From Xylanimonas protaetiae (lineage in GTDB: Bacteria > Actinomycetota > Actinomycetes > Actinomycetales > Cellulomonadaceae): a stretch of 64,000 bases of DNA. A model generated the notes under the pieces. It made no database searches and was not told the DNA's origin. It was given only the letters and a program-made list of their open reading frames with translations. Positions 1,226 to 10,113 of the stretch are shown here, one piece after another. Position numbers and translations under genes: made by a program. Within the stretch, counting starts at the first letter, position 1. Every line of letters begins with the position of its first letter. The stretch lies in the NCBI RefSeq assembly GCF_004135385.1, contig NZ_CP035493.1, forward strand, positions 3,539,440-3,603,439. The letters run 5' to 3'.

Positions 1226-1520
1226 GTGGTCCGTCCGTTCCTTTCTTCGGCAACTACGACGCCGGACGCCTGCGCTTCCGGGATGTCGTCAAGGTAGTCC
1301 ACGTGAGCCGTCCGCGCCTCGCGATCCGCCCTGTGACGTCGCCTGCCGGACGCTCCCACGCCCGTCGGGGGCCTCTGGCACCATGACGGACATCACGAGA
1401 CAGGCGGTCAGAACCGGTAGGCCAAGTGCTCGGATGGGGCCAGAATGGGTCTGATTCCACGACAGGCGTGGCCTTGCGGTGCGACGACACCGACGTGCCA
1501 CGACTAGAGAGAGGGTACTG

Positions 1521-4283
1521 GTGGCTTCGTACGACGAGACCGGACCGCTGATCAACGGTCTGCTCAGCTCGGTCCCCGACATCGACCCCGGCGAGACCGC
1601 CGAGTGGGTCGAGTCCTTCGACGGCCTGATCGACGACAAGGGTGGGCCGCGCGCCCGCTACGTCATGCTCAACCTGCTGCGCCGCGCCCGCGAGCGCAAC
1701 GTGGCGATCCCGGCGTCGTTCGCCACGCCGTACGTCAACACGATCGGCGTGCACGAGGAGCCCTACTTCCCCGGCGACGAGTCGCTGGAGCGCCAGTACC
1801 GCGGCTGGAACCGCTGGAACGCCGCCGTGATGGTGACGCGTGCGCAGAAGCCGGGCATCGGCGTCGGCGGGCACATCTCGTCGTACGCGTCGTCGGCCAC
1901 GCTGTACGAGGTGGGCCTGAACCACTTCTTCCGCGGCAAGGACCACCCGGGCGGCGGCGACCAGGTCTACTTCCAGGGCCACGCGTCCCCCGGCATGTAC
2001 GCCCGCGCGTACCTCGAGGGCCGCCTGTCCGCGGAGGACCTCGACGGGTTCCGCCAGGAGAAGTCGAAGGCCGGCCACGCCCTGCCGTCGTACCCGCACC
2101 CGCGCCTGCTGCCCGAGTTCTGGGAGTTCCCGACGGTCTCGATGGGCCTCGGCCCGGCGTCGGCGATCTACCAGGCGTGGACGAACCGGTACCTGCAGAA
2201 CCGTGGCCTGAAGGACACGTCGCAGCAGGACGTCTGGGCGTTCCTGGGCGACGGCGAGATGGACGAGCCGGAGTCGCGCGGCATGCTGCAGCTCGCGGCG
2301 CACCAGGGCCTGGACAACCTGACGTTCGTGGTCAACTGCAACCTGCAGCGCCTCGACGGCCCGGTCCGCGGCAACGGCAAGATCATCCAGGAGCTCGAGG
2401 CCCAGTTCAAGGGTGCGGGCTGGAACGTCATCAAGGTCATCTGGGGCCGTGAGTGGGACGCCCTGCTCAACGCGGACAAGGACCGCGCCCTGGTCAACCT
2501 TATGAACGTCACGCCGGACGGCGACTACCAGACGTACCGTGCCGAGTCGGGTGCGTTCATCCGCGAGCACTTCTTCGGTCGCGACCCGCGCACCAAGGCC
2601 CTCGTCGAGAACATGACGGACGAGGACATCTGGAACATGAAGCGCGGTGGTCACGACTACCGCAAGATCTACGCGGCGTACGCGGCGGCGCGGTCCCACC
2701 AGGGCCAGCCGACCGTGATCCTGGCGCAGACGGTCAAGGGCTACGGCCTGGGCTCGGGCTTCGCGGGCCGCAACTCGACGCACCAGATGAAGAAGCTGAA
2801 GTCGGACGACCTCAAGGCGCTGCGCGACTCGCTGCGGATCCCGATCCCGGACGAGCAGCTCGAGGACCCGTACTCGGCCCCGTACTACCACCCGGGCAAC
2901 GACGACCCGGCGATCCAGTACATGCTGGAGCGCCGCCGTCAGCTCGGTGGCTTCGTGCCCGAGCGCCGTCACGCGCCGAAGGCCGTCGCGCTGCCCGACC
3001 CCAAGGTCTACGAGCTGCTGAAGAAGGGCTCGGGCCAGCAGGAGGTCGCCACGACGATGGCGTTCGTCCGCCTGCTCAAGGACCTCATCAAGGACAAGGA
3101 GTTCGGCAAGCGCATCGTGCCGATCATCCCGGACGAGGCCCGCACGTTCGGCCTGGACGCGATCTTCCCGTCCGCGAAGATCTTCAACACGGGCGGCCAG
3201 CACTACCTCGCGGTGGACCGCGAGCTGATGCTCTCCTACAAGGAGTCCGAGGCCGGCCAGATCATGCACACCGGCATCAACGAGGCCGGTTCTGCAGCGG
3301 CGTTCCAGTCGGTCGGCACGTCCTACGCGACGCACGGCGAGCACCTGATCCCGGTCTACATCTTCTACTCGATGTTCGGGTTCCAGCGCACGGGCGACCA
3401 GTTCTGGGCGGCCGGCGACCAGCTCACGCGCGGCTTCATCATCGGCGCCACCGCGGGTCGCACGACCCTCGCCGGTGAGGGCCTCCAGCACATGGACGGC
3501 CACTCGCCGATCCTGGCCGGGACCAACACCGCGATGGTCATCTACGACCCCGCGTACGGCTACGAGATCCGCCACATCGTGCGCGACGGCATCGAGCGCA
3601 TGTTCGGCGCCTCGGCCGACGGCGAGCACGACGAGCAGGGCCGCGACCAGAACGTCATGTACTACCTCACGGTGTACAACGAGCCGATGGCCCAGCCGGC
3701 CGAGCCGGAGGACGTCGACGTCGAGGGCATCAAGCGCGGCATCCACCGCGTCTCGGTGTCCGACATCGAGGGCCCGAAGGCTCAGCTCCTCGCCTCCGGC
3801 GTGGGCGTGCCGTGGGCGCTCGAGGCGCAGCAGCTGCTGCGCGACGACTGGGGCGTCTCGGCCGACGTGTGGTCGGTGACCTCGTGGAGCGAGCTGCGTC
3901 GCGACGCGCTGGCCGCAGACCGGGAGGCGTTCGTCGACCCGTCCGCCCCCGTCCGCCTGCCGTACGTCACGGAGAAGCTCCAGGGCACCGGTGGCCCGTT
4001 CATCGCGTCGAGCGACTACGACCACCTGGTCCCCGACCAGATCCGCAAGTGGGTCCCGGGCGACTACGAGGTGCTGGGCGCCGACGGCTTCGGCTTCTCG
4101 GACACGCGCGCCGCCGCCCGCCGCTTCTTCCTCATCGACGGCCCGTCGATGGTGGTCAAGACGCTGCAGGCCCTCGCCCGCCGTGGCGAGGTCGACGCGG
4201 GCGTCGTCGGCAAGGCGATCGAGAAGTACCGCCTGCTCGACGTGAACGCCGGGACCTCGGGCAACGCGGGCGGCGACAGCTGA
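1521..4283 (+). CDS. aceE: Pyruvate dehydrogenase E1 component, homodimeric type
   Basis: A 920-residue thiamine-diphosphate enzyme that decarboxylates pyruvate and acetylates the lipoyl domain of E2, feeding acetyl-CoA to the TCA cycle and to the fatty-acid operon next door. The length and single-chain organisation match the AceE type. The ThDP motif runs from GDGEMDEPE (243-251) to NCNLQRLDG (272-280). The GTG at 1521 is preceded by GAGAGAGGG at a sensible distance, and the protein then starts [17 protein letters not shown], typical of actinobacterial AceE; an earlier in-frame GTG at 1479 lacks this support. The gene stands alone, without E2/E3 beside it, and ends in a strong hairpin terminator. 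Confidence 0.97.
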
Positions 4284-4352: not shown

Positions 4353-5060
4353 TCAGAGGCTCGGCTGCTCCTGCGCGGACGCGTGGTCCGCGATCGCCTG
4401 CTCGAGCGGCGGGCGCAGCTGGGCGACCGCGGCGGTGTCGGGGTGCAGGTCCAGGTTGGCCAGGTGCTGCTTGGCCTCGAGCGGCCGGTCGGCCTCCAGC
4501 GCCGCCAGGACCAGGTGCTGCCCGACGGACGGGTGGTGCTCCTTGACGCGCCAGTGCCCGACGCCGAGGCCGAGGGCCTCGACCGGCATGCCGGCGTCGC
4601 GCAGGATCTCCAGGCCGGCGGCGAGCGCCTTCCCCTCGGGGTCGCGCTCGGCGGCGGTGGCCAGCCGGCGGACGGCGCCCTCGGGGTCCGAGGCGAGCGA
4701 GAGCCGCCCCAGCTCGAGCAGCGGGTACCAGCCGCGCGGGTGCCCGGCGAGCTCCTCCGCGAGCGCCCACACGGCGAGGTCGGCCGCGCGCTCGCGCTGC
4801 TCCGCGGCGGTCTCCTCGTCGGCGGGCGCGGTCAGCGGGTCCTCCGGGTTCGTGGACTCGGCGGCGCGACGCCGCACGAGCTCGGCGAGGGCGTCGAACG
4901 CCCGCGCGTCGTTGGGGTCGTCGAGCAGCATGGCGCGCAAGGCATCCTCCTGGACGGTGTCGCCGCGGCGGCGGTCGGACGGCATGGGCCGCCGGGCGCC
5001 GACGGTCGAGGCCGAGAACGGCCGGCGGAGCAGGGCACGGAGCCGGGGCATCAGAGCCAT
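4353..5060 (-). CDS. TPR-like helical repeat protein of unknown function
   Basis: A 235-residue soluble protein. After a basic N-terminal stretch (MPRLRALLRRPFS) the sequence is almost entirely amphipathic helices with tetratricopeptide-like spacing (for example DDPNDARAFDALAELVRR, AVWALAEELAGHPRGWYPLLELGRL, and ALEADRPLEAKQHLANL). I cannot assign a partner. The ATG at 5058-5060 was chosen because the reading frame before it lies in the promoter region shared with fasR. A CCACAA half-site at 5074-5079 sits just upstream. Convergent with aceE. Confidence 0.75.
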   Translation of the reverse strand: MALMPRLRALLRRPFSASTVGARRPMPSDRRRGDTVQEDALRAMLLDDPNDARAFDALAELVRRRAAESTNPEDPLTAPADEETAAEQRERAADLAVWALAEELAGHPRGWYPLLELGRLSLASDPEGAVRRLATAAERDPEGKALAAGLEILRDAGMPVEALGLGVGHWRVKEHHPSVGQHLVLAALEADRPLEAKQHLANLDLHPDTAAVAQLRPPLEQAIADHASAQEQPSL

Positions 5061-5135
5061 GCCTTGACCATAACCACAACGCCGTTCCAGGGGGAGGGCA
5101 GATGGTCCTCCGGCGCCCGCCCGCCCGGCGCCGTT

Positions 5136-5152
5136 TGTGGCTTCTCCACAAC
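5136..5152. promoter_or_regulatory. Candidate FasR operator upstream of fasR
   Basis: A perfect inverted repeat TTGTGG-N5-CCACAA, 44 bp before the fasR start. The same 6-5-6 architecture recurs at 6378-6394 before fabD. Two identical palindromes bracketing the regulator gene suggest autoregulation, but binding is inferred. Confidence 0.65.
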
Positions 5153-5195
5153 GTCTCGGCGGGTTTCGTGGCCGTGCGGCCCGTATCCTCGTGAC

Positions 5196-6371
5196 GTGCC
5201 CACCTCGACGACCAACGCGGACAAGAACTTCGAGCATCGTGCTGCGACGGTGCAGCGCGTGCGCGAGGCGACGGGCGTGCTGACGAACGTGGCCCTGCGC
5301 CGGCTCGACGAGGAGCTGCCCTGGTACCGCGACCTGCCGGCCGAGGACCGCTCCTACGTGGGCCTGGTCGCGCAGTCCGGCATCACGTCGTTCGTGACGT
5401 GGTTCGCCGACCCGTCGGCCACGCCGTCGGGCGTCGGCGAGATGTTCTCGGCGGCGCCGCGCGAGCTGACGCAGTCGATCTCGCTGCAGCAGGCGCTGCA
5501 GCTCGTGCGGCTCATGGTCGACGTCGTCGAGACGCAGGCGGACCAGATCGCGGCGCCGGGCGCGGAGCGCGAGGTGCGCGAGGCGGTGCTGCGCTACTCG
5601 CGCGAGGTCGCGTTCTCGGCGGCCGAGGTGTACGCGCGGGCCGCGGAGCTGCGCGGCGCGTGGGACGCGCGCCTGGAGGCGCTCGTGGTCGACGCGCTGG
5701 TGCGCGGCGACGGCGACGACGCGGTCCGGTCGCGCGTCTCGGCCCTCGGCTGGTCGGGTCGCGGCCAGACGCTCGTGGTGGTCGGCACGACGACGACGAC
5801 GCTGGACGAGCTGCGGACCGCCGACCTGAGGCGTGCCGCGCGGCGTGCGGCCGGGGACGCGCTCGTGGGGATCCACGGCGACCGGGTGGTGCTCGTGCTG
5901 GGCGGCGAGGGCGACCTGGTCGCGTCGGCCACGAGCCTGCTGCCCCGGTTCGGGCCGGGGCCCGTGGTCATCGGCGCGCTGGTGCCGTCGGTCGCGGACG
6001 CGTCCCGGTCGGCCTCCGCCGCGCTCGCGGGGCTCGCGGCGGCGCCCGCGTGGCCGCAGGCGCCGCGCCCCGTGCTGGCCGACGACCTGCTGCCCGAGCG
6101 CGTGCTCATCGGCGACGCCGCCGCCCGTGCCACGCTCGTGGAGCAGGCCTACAAGCCGCTCGCGGGCGCCGGCGGGTCGGTGCTGGAGACGCTGTCCGCG
6201 TACCTGGGCACGGGGCGGTCGCTCGAGGCCGCCGCCCGGCAGCTCTACGTGCACCCGAACACCGTGCGCTACCGCCTGCGGAAGGTCACGGAGGTCACCG
6301 GGTGGGACCCGCTGGACGCGCGCGAGTCGTTCGTGCTCCAGGTGGCGCTCGCCCTGGGCGCGCTCGGCTAG
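5196..6371 (+). CDS. fasR: FasR-type regulator of fatty-acid synthesis (PucR/CdaR-like C-terminal HTH)
   Basis: A 391-residue regulator ending in the PucR-type helix-turn-helix: VLETLSAYLGTGRSLE, AAARQLYVHPNTVRYRL, then a VTGWDP segment (last 65 residues). The N-terminal two thirds are helical and carry no DNA-binding motif. Position directly upstream of fabD-fabH-acpP-fabF is the conserved location of FasR in Streptomyces (SCO2386), described there as an activator of this operon. The GTG at 5196 starts a good frame (PTSTTNADKNFEHRAATVQ); no better upstream start is seen. Transcribed in the same direction as fabD with a 91-bp gap that holds the second operator copy. Regulation of fabDHPF, and self-control through the 5136-5152 copy, are inferred from position and sites. 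Confidence 0.85.
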   Translation: MPTSTTNADKNFEHRAATVQRVREATGVLTNVALRRLDEELPWYRDLPAEDRSYVGLVAQSGITSFVTWFADPSATPSGVGEMFSAAPRELTQSISLQQALQLVRLMVDVVETQADQIAAPGAEREVREAVLRYSREVAFSAAEVYARAAELRGAWDARLEALVVDALVRGDGDDAVRSRVSALGWSGRGQTLVVVGTTTTTLDELRTADLRRAARRAAGDALVGIHGDRVVLVLGGEGDLVASATSLLPRFGPGPVVIGALVPSVADASRSASAALAGLAAAPAWPQAPRPVLADDLLPERVLIGDAAARATLVEQAYKPLAGAGGSVLETLSAYLGTGRSLEAAARQLYVHPNTVRYRLRKVTEVTGWDPLDARESFVLQVALALGALG

Positions 6372-6377
6372 CCGGAG

Positions 6378-6394
6378 TTGTGGGAACCCCACAA
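6378..6394. promoter_or_regulatory. Candidate FasR operator upstream of fabD
   Basis: A perfect 7-bp inverted repeat TTGTGGG-aac-CCCACAA, six bases after the fasR stop and 69 bases before the fabD start. Its core TTGTGG-N5-CCACAA is the same as the site before fasR. Confidence 0.7.
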
Positions 6395-6462
6395 GCCGGT
6401 TCCGGCAGGTTGGTTCCCAGCGGTACGGGCTGGGAGGCCTGTCGTCTGAGAATGTTGGTCCC

Positions 6463-7425
6463 GTGCTTGCCGTCGTCTGCCCTGGACAGGGCTCTCAGAC
6501 CCCCGGGATGCTCGCCCCCTGGCTCGAGCTTCCGGGCGTACCCGCCCTCCTGGCGTCGTTCTCCGAGGCGGCGGGGCTCGACCTCGTCGCCCACGGCACG
6601 ACGTCGGACGCCGACACCATCCGTGACACGGCGGTGGCCCAGCCGCTCATCGTCGCGTCGTCGCTGCTCGCGCTGCGCGTGATCCTCGACGGCCGCGAGG
6701 CCGCCGACGTCGTGGACGTCACCGCGGGCCACTCGGTCGGCGAGGTGGCCGCGGCCGCCGTCGCGGGCGTGCTTGACGACGCCGGCGCCGTCGCCCTGGT
6801 GACCCGCCGCGCGCAGGCCATGGCCAAGGCCGCGGCCGCCGCGCCGTCGGGCATGAGCGCCGTCGTGGGTGGCGACGCCGCCGAGGTGACGGCCGCGATC
6901 GAGGCGGCAGGCCTGTGGCCCGCGAACGTCAACGGGGCCGGGCAGACGGTCGCCGGCGGCTCGCCCGACGGCCTGGCCGCCCTGGCCGAGAACGCCCCCG
7001 CCCGCGCCCGCGTCATCCCGCTGCAGGTGGCCGGCGCGTTCCACACGCCGTTCATGGACGCTGCGCGCGACGAGTTCGAGCCGGTCGCCACGTCGTGGCC
7101 CGCGCACGACCCGCAGGTCACGTTCCTCGCCGACGTCGACGGGCGGCCGCACGGCGACGCCGCGACGACGATGCGCACCATCGCCGGGCAGGTCACGGCC
7201 CCCGTGCGCTGGGACCTCGTCATGGACGAGCTTGCCGCCCGCGGCGTCACCGCGGTCCTGGAGCTCGCCCCGGGCGGCGTGCTCACCGGCCTCGCCAAGC
7301 GCGCGCTCAAGGGCGTCGAGCTCGTCGCCGTGAAGTCGCCCGACGACGTCGAGGCCGCCCGCGACCTCGTCGCCCGCCACAGCATCGCCGCCTCGAACAT
7401 CGTCCCGAACGGAGCCCAGGCATGA
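6463..7425 (+). CDS. fabD: Malonyl-CoA:ACP transacylase
   Basis: A 320-residue acyltransferase that loads malonyl onto ACP for type II fatty-acid synthesis. It opens with the diagnostic AVVCPGQGSQTPGML, has the nucleophile Ser91 in GHSVGE, and a GAFHTPFM segment with the catalytic His. Start: GTG at 6463, since the PGQGSQ motif must lie close to the N-terminus; an ATG at 6452 is out of frame. No clear ribosome-binding site is visible, so a short or absent leader is possible. The stop overlaps fabH by ATGA. Confidence 0.95.
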   Translation: MLAVVCPGQGSQTPGMLAPWLELPGVPALLASFSEAAGLDLVAHGTTSDADTIRDTAVAQPLIVASSLLALRVILDGREAADVVDVTAGHSVGEVAAAAVAGVLDDAGAVALVTRRAQAMAKAAAAAPSGMSAVVGGDAAEVTAAIEAAGLWPANVNGAGQTVAGGSPDGLAALAENAPARARVIPLQVAGAFHTPFMDAARDEFEPVATSWPAHDPQVTFLADVDGRPHGDAATTMRTIAGQVTAPVRWDLVMDELAARGVTAVLELAPGGVLTGLAKRALKGVELVAVKSPDDVEAARDLVARHSIAASNIVPNGAQA

Positions 7426-8423
7426 CCGTCCTCAGGCAGGCCCAGCCGGTCGCGTACTCGCGCATCCTCGGCATCGGGGGCGAGCGCGGTGAGCTCGTCG
7501 TCACGAACGACGACATCGCTGGCCCGATCGACTCGTCCGACGAGTGGATCCGCCAGCGCACCGGCATCGTGACACGGCGCCGCGCGGGCGCCGACCGCGA
7601 CGTCCTGGACCTGTCCGAGGTCGCCGCCACGAAGGCGATCGCCGCCGCGGGCGTGCCCCTCGACGAGATCGACGCGATCATCATGTCGACGATCACGCAC
7701 TTCGTGCAGACGCCGTCGGGCGCCGCGATCCTCGCCGACCGCCTCGGGATCACCCCGGCCGCCGCCTACGACATCTCGGCCGCGTGCGCGGGCTACTGCT
7801 ACGCCATCGGCCAGGCCGACGCGCTCGTCCGCTCGGGCGCCGCGCGCAACGTGCTCGTGATCGGCGCCGAGAAGCTCTCCGAGATCATCGACCCGACCGA
7901 CCGGTCCATCTCGTTCCTGCTGGGCGACGGCGCGGGCGCCGCCGTCGTCGGCGCCTCCGACGTCCCGGGCATCGGCCCGACCGTGTGGGGCTCGGACGGC
8001 TCGAAGGCCGCCACCATCCGCCAGACGCACTCGTGGCTCGAGCTGCGCGAGGACTCCTCGCTCGGCTGGCCCACGCTGCGCCAGGACGGCCAGACGGTGT
8101 TCAAGTGGGCCAGCTTCCAGGTCGGCAAGTTCGCGCAGGCCGCGATGGACGCCGCGGGCGTCGGCCCTGAGGACATCGACGTGTTCGTGCCGCACCAGGC
8201 GAACATGCGGATCATCGACCAGATGGTCAAGCAGCTCAAGCTGCCCGAGACCGTCGTCGTCGCGCGCGACATCGCCGAGACCGGCAACACGTCGGCCGCG
8301 TCCGTGCCGCTCGCGATCGAGCGGCTGCTGGCCGAGGGCCAGGCCAGGTCGGGCGACGTCTGCCTGCAGATCGGCTTCGGCGCCGGCCTTGTCTACGCGG
8401 CCCAGGTCGTCGTCCTCCCCTGA
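7422..8423 (+). CDS. fabH: Beta-ketoacyl-ACP synthase III
   Basis: A 333-residue condensing enzyme that starts chains by joining an acyl-CoA primer to malonyl-ACP; in actinobacteria branched primers are usual. The Cys122-His258-Asn289 triad is present in SAACAGYCY, VPHQANMRI and GNTSAAS. The N-terminus has the SDEWIRQRTGI motif of KASIII. The ATG overlaps the fabD stop (ATGA), so translation is probably coupled. Confidence 0.96.
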   Translation: MTVLRQAQPVAYSRILGIGGERGELVVTNDDIAGPIDSSDEWIRQRTGIVTRRRAGADRDVLDLSEVAATKAIAAAGVPLDEIDAIIMSTITHFVQTPSGAAILADRLGITPAAAYDISAACAGYCYAIGQADALVRSGAARNVLVIGAEKLSEIIDPTDRSISFLLGDGAGAAVVGASDVPGIGPTVWGSDGSKAATIRQTHSWLELREDSSLGWPTLRQDGQTVFKWASFQVGKFAQAAMDAAGVGPEDIDVFVPHQANMRIIDQMVKQLKLPETVVVARDIAETGNTSAASVPLAIERLLAEGQARSGDVCLQIGFGAGLVYAAQVVVLP

Positions 8424-8463: not shown

Positions 8464-8712
8464 ATGGCTTACACCGACACCGAGATCCTCGAGGGCCTCG
8501 CCGAGATCGTCGCCGAGGAGACCGGCCTGCCGACCGACGCCGTGCAGCTCGAGAAGTCCTTCACCGACGACCTCGACATCGACTCGCTGTCGATGATGAC
8601 GATCGTGACGCACGCCGAGGACAAGTTCTCGGTGCGCATCCCCGACGAGGAGGTCAAGAACCTCGCGACCGTCGGCGACGCCGTCACCTTCATCGTCGGC
8701 GCCCAGGCCTGA
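8464..8712 (+). CDS. acpP: Acyl carrier protein
   Basis: An 82-residue acidic four-helix carrier protein. Ser41 in DIDSLSMM is the expected 4'-phosphopantetheine attachment site. A GAGAGAAGGA ribosome-binding site precedes the ATG at a normal distance. It lies between fabH and fabF as in other actinobacterial fabDHPF operons, so it is the fatty-acid ACP and not a polyketide carrier. Confidence 0.96.
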   Translation: MAYTDTEILEGLAEIVAEETGLPTDAVQLEKSFTDDLDIDSLSMMTIVTHAEDKFSVRIPDEEVKNLATVGDAVTFIVGAQA

Positions 8713-8729: not shown

Positions 8730-8799
8730 CCGTCATCCTGCGCGGAGACGCAGGACCCGTCCGGGGCTCCGCGACCGCTCCGCGGCCGCAGGATGACGG
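8730..8799. repeat. Intergenic palindromic repeat between acpP and fabF
   Basis: A 13-bp inverted repeat (8730-8742 with 8787-8799) encloses 44 bases. Its left half contains a smaller hairpin, CCTGCG-cggaga-CGCAGG at 8737-8754. A near copy of that left half lies at 63206-63235, 54 kb away, upstream of clpP. This suggests a dispersed repeat family. Inside the operon it may also act as an mRNA stem that separates the highly expressed acpP from fabF. Confidence 0.6.
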
Positions 8800-8847: not shown

Positions 8848-10113
8848 ATGACCGCACCCCGCGATGTCGTCGTCACCGGCATCGGTGCCACCACCCCGCT
8901 CGGCGGCGACGCGGCGTCCACCTGGGCCGCAGCCCTGGCCGGCGAGTCGGGGGCGCGCACCTTCGAGAACGACTGGGCGGAGCAGTACGGCATCCCCGTG
9001 ACCTTCGGCGCGACCATCAAGGTCAAGCCCGAGGAGGTGCTCCCCCGCCCCGAGATCAAGCGCATGGACCCGTCCGCGCAGTACGCGATCATCGCGACGC
9101 GCGAGGCGTGGGCCGACGCGGGCTTCGGCACCGCCGCCGAGGGCGACCAGCAGGTCGACCCGGAGCGCCTCGGCGCCGTGGTCTCGTCCGGCATCGGCGG
9201 CATCTGGACGACGCTCGACGCGTGGGACACCCTGCGCGAGCGTGGCGCCCGCCGCATGCTCCCGATGACGGTGCCGATGCTCATGCCGAACTCGCCGTCC
9301 GCGTACGTCGAGCTGGAGATCGGCGCCCAGGCCGGTGCGCATGCGCTGGTCTCGGCCTGCGCGTCGGGTGCCGAGGCGATCGGCTACGGCATCGAGATGA
9401 TCCGCAGCGGCCGTGCCGACGTCGTCGTCGCCGGTGGTACCGAGGCGACCATGCACCCCATGCCGATCGCCGCGTTCGCGGCCTCGCGCACGCTGTCGCT
9501 GCGCAACGACGACCCGCAGGGCGCCTCGCGCCCCTACGACGTCGACCGCGACGGGTTCGTCATCGGCGAGGGCGCCGCGATCGTGGTGCTGGAGTCGGCG
9601 GAGCACGCCGCCGCCCGCGGCGCGCGCGTGTACGCGAAGCTGGCCGGCGTCGGCCTCAGCTCGGACGCCTACCACATCACCTCCCCCGACCCCGAGGGCA
9701 AGGGGCAGATCGCCGCGATGCGCCGCGCGCTCGAGATGGCCGGGGCGACCGCCGCCGACGTCGCGCACATCAACGCGCACGCCACGTCCACCAAGGTCGG
9801 CGACCTCACCGAGACGAACTCGATCCGTACCCTGCTGGGCGGCGAGGCGGACCACGTGCTGCTCTCGGCGACCAAGTCGATGACCGGGCACCTGCTCGGC
9901 GGCGCGGGCGCGCTCGAGACCGTGTTCACGGTCAAGGCCGTGCAGGAGCGCCTCGCTCCCCCGACCATCAACGTGGCCAACCCGGACCCCGAGCTCAAGG
10001 TGCCGCTCGTCCGGGACGCGCCGGCCCCGCTGCCGGCGGGCGACGTCGTCGCGGTCAACAACTCGTTCGGCTTCGGCGGGCACAACGTGGCCCTCGTGGT
10101 GACGAACGCCTGA
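8848..10113 (+). CDS. fabF: Beta-ketoacyl-ACP synthase II
   Basis: A 421-residue elongation condensing enzyme. The active-site Cys171 lies in VSACASGAEA, and the two histidines lie in NAHATSTKVGD and KSMTGHLLGG, the C-H-H set of KAS I/II. It completes the fabD-fabH-acpP-fabF operon. The 135-bp gap after acpP, filled by a palindromic repeat, is the only break in the operon. A 17-bp hairpin terminator follows 12 bases after the stop. Confidence 0.96.
   Translation: MTAPRDVVVTGIGATTPLGGDAASTWAAALAGESGARTFENDWAEQYGIPVTFGATIKVKPEEVLPRPEIKRMDPSAQYAIIATREAWADAGFGTAAEGDQQVDPERLGAVVSSGIGGIWTTLDAWDTLRERGARRMLPMTVPMLMPNSPSAYVELEIGAQAGAHALVSACASGAEAIGYGIEMIRSGRADVVVAGGTEATMHPMPIAAFAASRTLSLRNDDPQGASRPYDVDRDGFVIGEGAAIVVLESAEHAAARGARVYAKLAGVGLSSDAYHITSPDPEGKGQIAAMRRALEMAGATAADVAHINAHATSTKVGDLTETNSIRTLLGGEADHVLLSATKSMTGHLLGGAGALETVFTVKAVQERLAPPTINVANPDPELKVPLVRDAPAPLPAGDVVAVNNSFGFGGHNVALVVTNA

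Follow-up and report, generated by a model that had tools for sequence, protein, structure and literature searches.

The window analysed here is a 64,000-nt stretch of the Xylanimonas protaetiae genome in which a PucR-type regulator gene, fasR, lies between two predicted operators and is followed by fabD, fabH, acpP and fabF. The features concerned are the following.

1479–4283, forward strand: aceE, homodimeric pyruvate dehydrogenase E1, an upstream neighbour given for context (TIGR00759 above cut-off).
4353–5060, reverse strand: divergent gene whose upstream intergenic region also holds operator 1, a possible second target (no Pfam family at the gathering score).
5135–5151, no strand assigned: predicted FasR operator 1, upstream of fasR (exact palindrome, matrix score, conservation).
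5184–5189, forward strand: TATCCT, a -10 element spanning -12 to -7 relative to the fasR GTG, at which a leaderless transcript is predicted to begin (5196).
5196–6371, forward strand: fasR, PucR-type regulator and MabR homologue (Pfam GGDEF_2 and HTH_30; Rv2242 structures).
6378–6394, no strand assigned: predicted FasR operator 2, upstream of fabD (exact palindrome, matrix score, fixed distance to fabD).
6451–6456, forward strand: AATGTT, a -10-like element spanning -12 to -7 relative to the fabD GTG, at which a leaderless transcript is predicted to begin (6463).
6463–7425, forward strand: fabD-type malonyl transacylase, first gene of the operon predicted to be controlled (Pfam Acyl_transf_1 above cut-off).
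7422–8423, forward strand: fabH (Pfam ACP_syn_III).
8464–8712, forward strand: acpP, acyl carrier protein (NF002147 above cut-off).
8848–10113, forward strand: fabF (NF005589 above cut-off).

The fasR product contains a GGDEF-like domain (PF17853, E = 1.8e-13) and a PucR C-terminal helix-turn-helix domain (PF13556, E = 2e-22). By sequence, it matches the C-terminal fragment of MabR (Rv2242 of M. tuberculosis), the FasR orthologue of mycobacteria, in PDB entry 9f80 (E = 8.5e-55), and residues 19–151 match the N-terminal, globin-like fragment in 9fb1 (E = 5.5e-19). It is thus homologous to MabR in both its N- and C-terminal parts and, as far as the MabR sources covered here go, has a near-identical recognition helix. 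A search of its own genome at E = 0.001 returned a single match, FasR itself. In the portions of the literature covered, the TetR-type FasR (Corynebacterium; Mycobacterium Rv3208) has the gene name and fatty-acid targets in common with the window protein but belongs to an unrelated protein family; identity with it was rejected because Pfam at E = 0.001 found GGDEF_2 and HTH_30 and nothing else. The name fabD rests on the Pfam match and on the place of the gene in the operon, the score for the TIGR00128 fabD model being below its cut-off. The fabH start codon overlaps the fabD stop codon as ATGA (7422–7425), which suggests translational coupling. The gap between acpP and fabF holds, by eye, a perfect inverted repeat of 13 bp (CCGTCATCCTGCG at 8730–8742 and CGCAGGATGACGG at 8787–8799) that could allow separate expression of the two genes.

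The candidate operators, TTGTGGCTTCTCCACAA at 5135–5151 and TTGTGGGAACCCCACAA at 6378–6394, are exact palindromes of the form TTGTGG-N5-CCACAA, and the sequence bears out the statement of the initial annotation that their half-sites and spacing are identical. That annotation had placed the second palindrome correctly but the first at 5136–5152, one base too far to the right; its distance of 44 nt to the fasR GTG at 5196 holds, whereas the fabD GTG at 6463 is 68 nt away from its palindrome and not 69 nt. The exact motif is present twice in the 3,859,980-bp genome, both times at these sites in the window, and did not occur in 100 dinucleotide-preserving shuffles of the window. Many unrelated occurrences had been named beforehand as an argument against a FasR operator, and for the exact motif the genome scan gave these two copies alone. 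The core TTGT-N9-ACAA is found four times in the genome, before fasR, fabD, fabG-fabI and a tRNA-Lys gene; two of the four lie in the window, compared with a total of two across all 100 window shuffles.

Reversed control patterns were not rarer overall. In the genome, the reversed motif gave one exact match (two for the true pattern) and 20 matches with up to one mismatch (six for the true pattern), and the reversed core gave 13 (four for the true core). When up to three mismatches were allowed, the window held 12 matches where 8.7 were expected, no clear excess. The case for the palindromes therefore rests on position and conservation, not on abundance. Short palindromes do arise by chance, and the window shows no clear enrichment of loose matches; that these two are chance products without function is nevertheless next to impossible, given that both exact genomic copies stand at fasR and fabD, that the shuffles contained none and that the position before fabD is kept among relatives, as described below. 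With a matrix trained on 91 unique fasR and fabD sites, the two window sites among them, the palindrome at 6378–6394 scored 26.5 and that at 5135–5151 scored 25.8; the next-best non-operator position in the window reached 7.3.

The class of operator to which these palindromes belong is already known, as their core matches the recognition sequence of MabR. In the portions of the source covered, that sequence is TTTTGT-N9-ACAAAA and has experimental support, and FasR of S. coelicolor, 42% identical to MabR, recognizes inverted repeats of high similarity and acts as an inducer of the fas II operon, with the predicted site at about -67 of the transcription start (PMC5541348). The initial annotation had named the fabDHPF promoter of Streptomyces as a known place of FasR action. 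For MabR, the part covered of PMC11617747 made use of an oligonucleotide that carries this TTGT-N9-ACAA core. As in the MabR operator, TTGT and ACAA are 9 bp apart in both window sites, and the fabD site lies between the regulator gene and fabD, a location also given for the sites of mycobacteria and S. coelicolor (PMC5541348, in part). Unlike the MabR sequence, the window sites do not have the outer bases TTTTGT...ACAAAA, which are also variable among Streptomycetaceae sites (L237, L243, L245). The distances differ too, the MabR site being placed at -87 from the start in M. tuberculosis and at -147 in M. smegmatis (PMC5541348, in part). The order regulator-fabD-fabH-acp-fabF is that of S. coelicolor, where the regulator is SCO2386, and the -67 predicted there fits the distances found here, provided that transcription begins at the start codon (PMC5541348, in part).

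We compared 129 loci, 49 from relatives and 80 named ones (the best 80 of 585 confirmed, without S. coelicolor itself), with some genomes represented in both sets; 126 of them contain fasR and fabD, and the relatives are not independent of one another. Within 60–75 nt before fabD, TTGT-N9-ACAA with at most one mismatch was found in 114 of the 126 loci, ending 67 nt before the gene in 56, 68 nt in 48, 66 nt in seven and 69 nt in three. In wider listings, no other place of the site appeared except for one additional one-mismatch match in L084. The distance between site and fabD is fixed although the gap between fasR and fabD varies among loci. All 34 Streptomycetaceae loci (within the best 80 of 585) have the fabD site, 31 of them without mismatch, and 12 of the 126 loci have none with up to one mismatch. 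Comparison with the fabD promoters of relatives, which the initial annotation had proposed, thus shows a site kept from Cellulomonadaceae to Streptomyces. A second conserved block follows operator 2 at 6407–6423 of the window, about -56 to -40 of fabD promoters; it is AGGTTGGTnCgcGTCG-like in cellulomonads and GTTCTTCGTCCCTGTCC-like in Streptomyces and sits too far upstream to be a -35 box.

In one genome, G046, fabD is present but the search gave no match to FasR. Its aceE stands immediately before fabD, and the 3.9-kb aceE-fabD locus contains no site even when one mismatch is allowed; joint absence was seen in this one case. Of ten genomes searched, eight had no fabD match and were unusable.

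These data bear on whether the sites might belong to another DNA-binding protein, such as a Rex- or CRP-like or a TetR-type lipid regulator, which FasR merely adjoins. The outer bases of Rex and CRP sites are similar to TTGTGG. In those sites, however, 8 bp separate TGTG and CACA, compared with 7 bp in both window sites, and on this spacing and on gene content we rejected Rex- or CRP-like ownership. A TetR-type owner would have a precedent in C. glutamicum, whose TetR-type FasR acts on some acc promoters (PMC11602165, in part). Against any other owner stand the experimentally supported MabR sequence with the same spacing (PMC5541348, in part), the absence of both site and fasR in G046 and the location of 54 of the 75 matches listed (39 genomes, hand tally) at fatty-acid genes, and we regard such an owner as highly improbable. 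The match to the MabR core, the MabR-homologous regulator next to it, the conservation of the fabD site and the joint absence in G046 argue instead that both palindromes are FasR operators, by which FasR would activate fabDHPF and regulate itself, probably along with further targets. We assign this reading a probability of about 0.85, and the proposal of the initial annotation that one regulator, FasR, serves both palindromes is very probably right.

Promoter elements in register with the start codons suggest how the sites are placed relative to transcription. A scan of 5000–6600 for consensus promoters and terminators gave no matches. Upstream of fasR, TANNNT stands in register with an in-frame start codon in 37 of 55 loci (50 unique upstream sequences), compared with eight at a shift of -1 and none or one at other shifts. 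Among 107 unique fabD promoters, 93 combine A at -11 with T at -7, a combination found 0–27 times when the positions are slid by one to four; G is present at -14 in 101 of the 107, and the window promoter has the A and the T without this G. A Shine-Dalgarno-like core was seen in eight of the 107. Registered TANNNT is read as a mark of leaderless genes, which are frequent in Actinobacteria (PMC3160421, in part). With -10 boxes registered to both start codons, the fabD and fasR mRNAs are probably leaderless.

We searched for a perfect TTGT-N9-ACAA from 250 nt upstream to 45 nt inside the aligned fasR start. Of the 56 loci with a FasR of 66% identity or more (the window's own included), 55 have the site, as do 32 of 39 other loci, among which L229, a Demequina, is counted. 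None of the 34 Streptomycetaceae loci (within the best 80 of 585) has a perfect site in this span; four have one with one mismatch, and the stretch for L254 holds only 124 nt upstream. Streptomycetaceae thus differ from the window in having the site at fabD but no perfect copy in the 250 nt before fasR, and the contrast between close homologues and Streptomycetaceae leads us to predict lineage-specific autoregulation, which looks like a trait of the window's and related lineages rather than of Streptomyces. The part covered of PMC5541348 holds no mention of MabR acting on its own promoter.

The palindrome upstream of fasR also lies 74 nt from the ATG of the divergent gene at 4353–5060, in an intergenic region common to both, and could in principle serve that gene rather than fasR. 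Among the 87 loci with a fasR site, 60 have the divergent gene, in three cases not adjacent; it was not found in the other 27, which include seven Arthrobacter/Pseudarthrobacter loci; in six of the latter, aceE ends 196–266 nt before fasR. The upstream site therefore goes with fasR, and we rejected the divergent gene as sole target because the site is present without it in these 27 loci. The geometry points the same way: in the 37 of 55 loci with a -10 element registered to fasR, the palindrome is 19–25 nt (25 loci), 31 nt (three) or 42–45 nt (nine) before the predicted start, spacing classes that differ by about one and two helical turns. That the palindrome serves the divergent gene instead of fasR thus appears very unlikely. 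The autoregulation implied by the initial annotation gains support from the conservation of the upstream site, including in the 27 loci without the divergent gene. As a separate observation, the divergent gene is beside fasR in most cellulomonad-type loci and is a possible co-regulated gene. A palindrome about 21 nt before the predicted fasR start would lie over the -35 region, and in relatives with this spacing repression is therefore suggested. The window's genus belongs to the 42–45 nt class; in the window the palindrome lies just upstream of the -35 region, where the spacing by itself favours neither activation nor repression.

Beyond the window, one candidate target in the genome is the fabG-fabI operon (fabG, NF009466; fabI, NF005908; both above cut-off), with TTGTAGGAATCCGACAA 96 nt before fabG and a matrix score of 26.2. 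Sites with one half-site mismatch lie before a 2-oxoacid dehydrogenase E1-alpha gene (TTGGAGGGATCCCACAA, score 17.5), before an accA-like biotin-carboxylase gene (TTGTGGGAACCCACCAA, 17.8) and between an accD-like carboxyltransferase gene and the divergent birA (TTGGCGGAACCCCACAA, 15.7). These three score no better than TTGTCAAGAAGCGACAA, the fourth genomic TTGT-N9-ACAA (L066, 1501–1517; genome position 825825), which is 58 nt before the tRNA-Lys gene, scores 17.4, is left unassigned and may be due to chance. NCBIfam names the E1-alpha gene as a pyruvate dehydrogenase (TIGR03181 above cut-off); we read it as the branched-chain bkdA, since an aceE is already present in the genome. The stricter pattern TTGTNGG-N3-CCNACAA, from which the fasR site deviates at two positions, occurs with up to one mismatch at eight places in the genome, five of them before the named target genes; with up to two mismatches it gave 51 matches, compared with 78 for its reversed form. 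One-mismatch matches in L177, L181, L182 and L003–L006 were set aside with matrix scores of 5.9–9.9, and fadD was rejected as a target in this genome because its promoter scored 4.3, compared with a 99th control percentile of 4.9.

The matrix was also run on the 350 nt upstream of each of these genes in the best 30 loci per gene, taken from searches of 59 genomes, with 952 coding or downstream blocks as controls (99th percentile 4.9, maximum 11.9). Among these best loci, scores above the 99th percentile were obtained for fabG-fabI in 26 of 29, accA-like in 26 of 30, accD-like in 28 of 30, E1-alpha in 23 of 30 and fadD in five of 30; above the control maximum, the corresponding numbers were 25, 18, 25, 13 and five. 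All five fadD matches are in the window's genus, in which two other fadD promoters scored below the control, and outside the genus none of 22 fadD loci (L370–L391), the sole promoter control, passed. We had taken fadD for a member of the regulon from pattern matches in genus relatives and dropped it on this result. Pattern search of 39 genomes gave 92 sites, compared with 179 for the reversed pattern (hand sums). Among the 75 matches listed (hand tally), 30 are at fasR or fabD, ten at fabG, four each at accA-like genes and fadD, three at E1-alpha, two at bioY and one at an accD-like gene; 21 have no assigned gene. Across 50 fabG-fabI loci, fabG precedes fabI in 44 (with its start outside the stretch in two), and the site is perfect in 21 and present with up to one mismatch in 29, being mostly absent outside the family. 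We take SCO1815 of S. coelicolor to be a fabG. The part covered of PMC13033682 reports joint repression of this gene, fasR and fabD at 72 h in a single S. coelicolor strain.

Two observations in relatives stand apart. The motif occurs before bioY (biotin uptake) in L050, L049, L063 and L152 (L049 named by eye), in L050 divergently from a MaoC-like gene; no claim for X. protaetiae is drawn from these sites. At G021:C1:958876 and 959034 (L132, L057), two copies of the motif lie 158 bp apart before an E1-alpha homologue.

Many of the E1-alpha and accA-like sites have TTGGAGG half-sites, as do some fabD sites; they may be FasR sites of lower strength or may belong to a different protein. In the latter case, FasR would own only the fabD and fasR sites, perhaps with those at fabG-fabI, and the carboxylase and dehydrogenase sites would belong to a second regulator that recognizes TTGGAGG-N3-CCTCCAA. 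The low scores of many accA-like and E1-alpha sites with these half-sites favour such a division, as does the fact that the published targets, in the parts of the literature covered, are the fas II operon only. It sits less well with the mixed half-sites that are seen at fabD too (TTGTAGGAAACCTCCAA in L083 is one example) and with the full-strength sites at fabG-fabI and at several accD-like genes, and we consider it a real but rather unlikely possibility.

A single FasR regulon would extend further. In this reading, FasR of Cellulomonadaceae is a pathway-wide regulator that also controls itself, with leaderless fasR and fabD mRNAs, and its targets are E1-alpha (bkdA), the accA-like and accD-like genes, possibly birA, fabG-fabI, fabDHPF and fasR. 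These would link precursor supply, malonyl-CoA formation, possibly biotin ligation, reduction and elongation. We hold this wider regulon to be slightly more probable than its opposite, a little less firmly than we would have otherwise, because of the stricter recount and of the family name that NCBIfam gives to E1-alpha.

From sequence, conservation, position and homology to MabR we infer binding, activation, leaderless starts and the sign of autoregulation, and propose that they combine as follows. A FasR dimer would bind TTGT-N9-ACAA via its helix-turn-helix (VHPNTVRYRLR region) and, by analogy with MabR, may sense acyl-CoA. The fabD site would be centred ~77 bp upstream of the transcription start, probably the GTG start codon, and from it FasR would activate fabD-fabH-acpP-fabF. 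The fasR site, centred ~53 bp upstream of the predicted start, would let FasR regulate itself, with negative feedback as the likelier sign because the site overlaps the -35 region in many relatives. Further copies probably put fabG-fabI, acyl-CoA carboxylase and the 2-oxoacid dehydrogenase under FasR.

In the open-access literature covered, in part, for this purpose (including PMC7324645, PMC5541348, PMC11617747, PMC11602165, PMC3160421, PMC13033682 and PMC12845086), we found no report of a PucR-type FasR at carboxylase, 2-oxoacid dehydrogenase or fabG-fabI promoters and none of a site before fasR, which is weak evidence of absence as most subscription papers lie outside it. In these sources, work on FasR/MabR-type control concerns Streptomyces and mycobacteria and, as target, the fas II operon, and the confirmed regulators of some acc promoters are all of the TetR type (PMC11602165, in part). 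If the wider reading is correct, FasR would be a direct transcriptional regulator of acyl-CoA carboxylase, and its regulon would be wider than the fas II operon reported, in the portions covered, for FasR and MabR. The predicted sites provide a short list of promoters to test, and the motif with its fixed distance to fabD could serve in the annotation of FasR operators across Actinomycetes. On the wider reading, a single regulator with a single motif would explain how the pathway is coordinated in Cellulomonadaceae.
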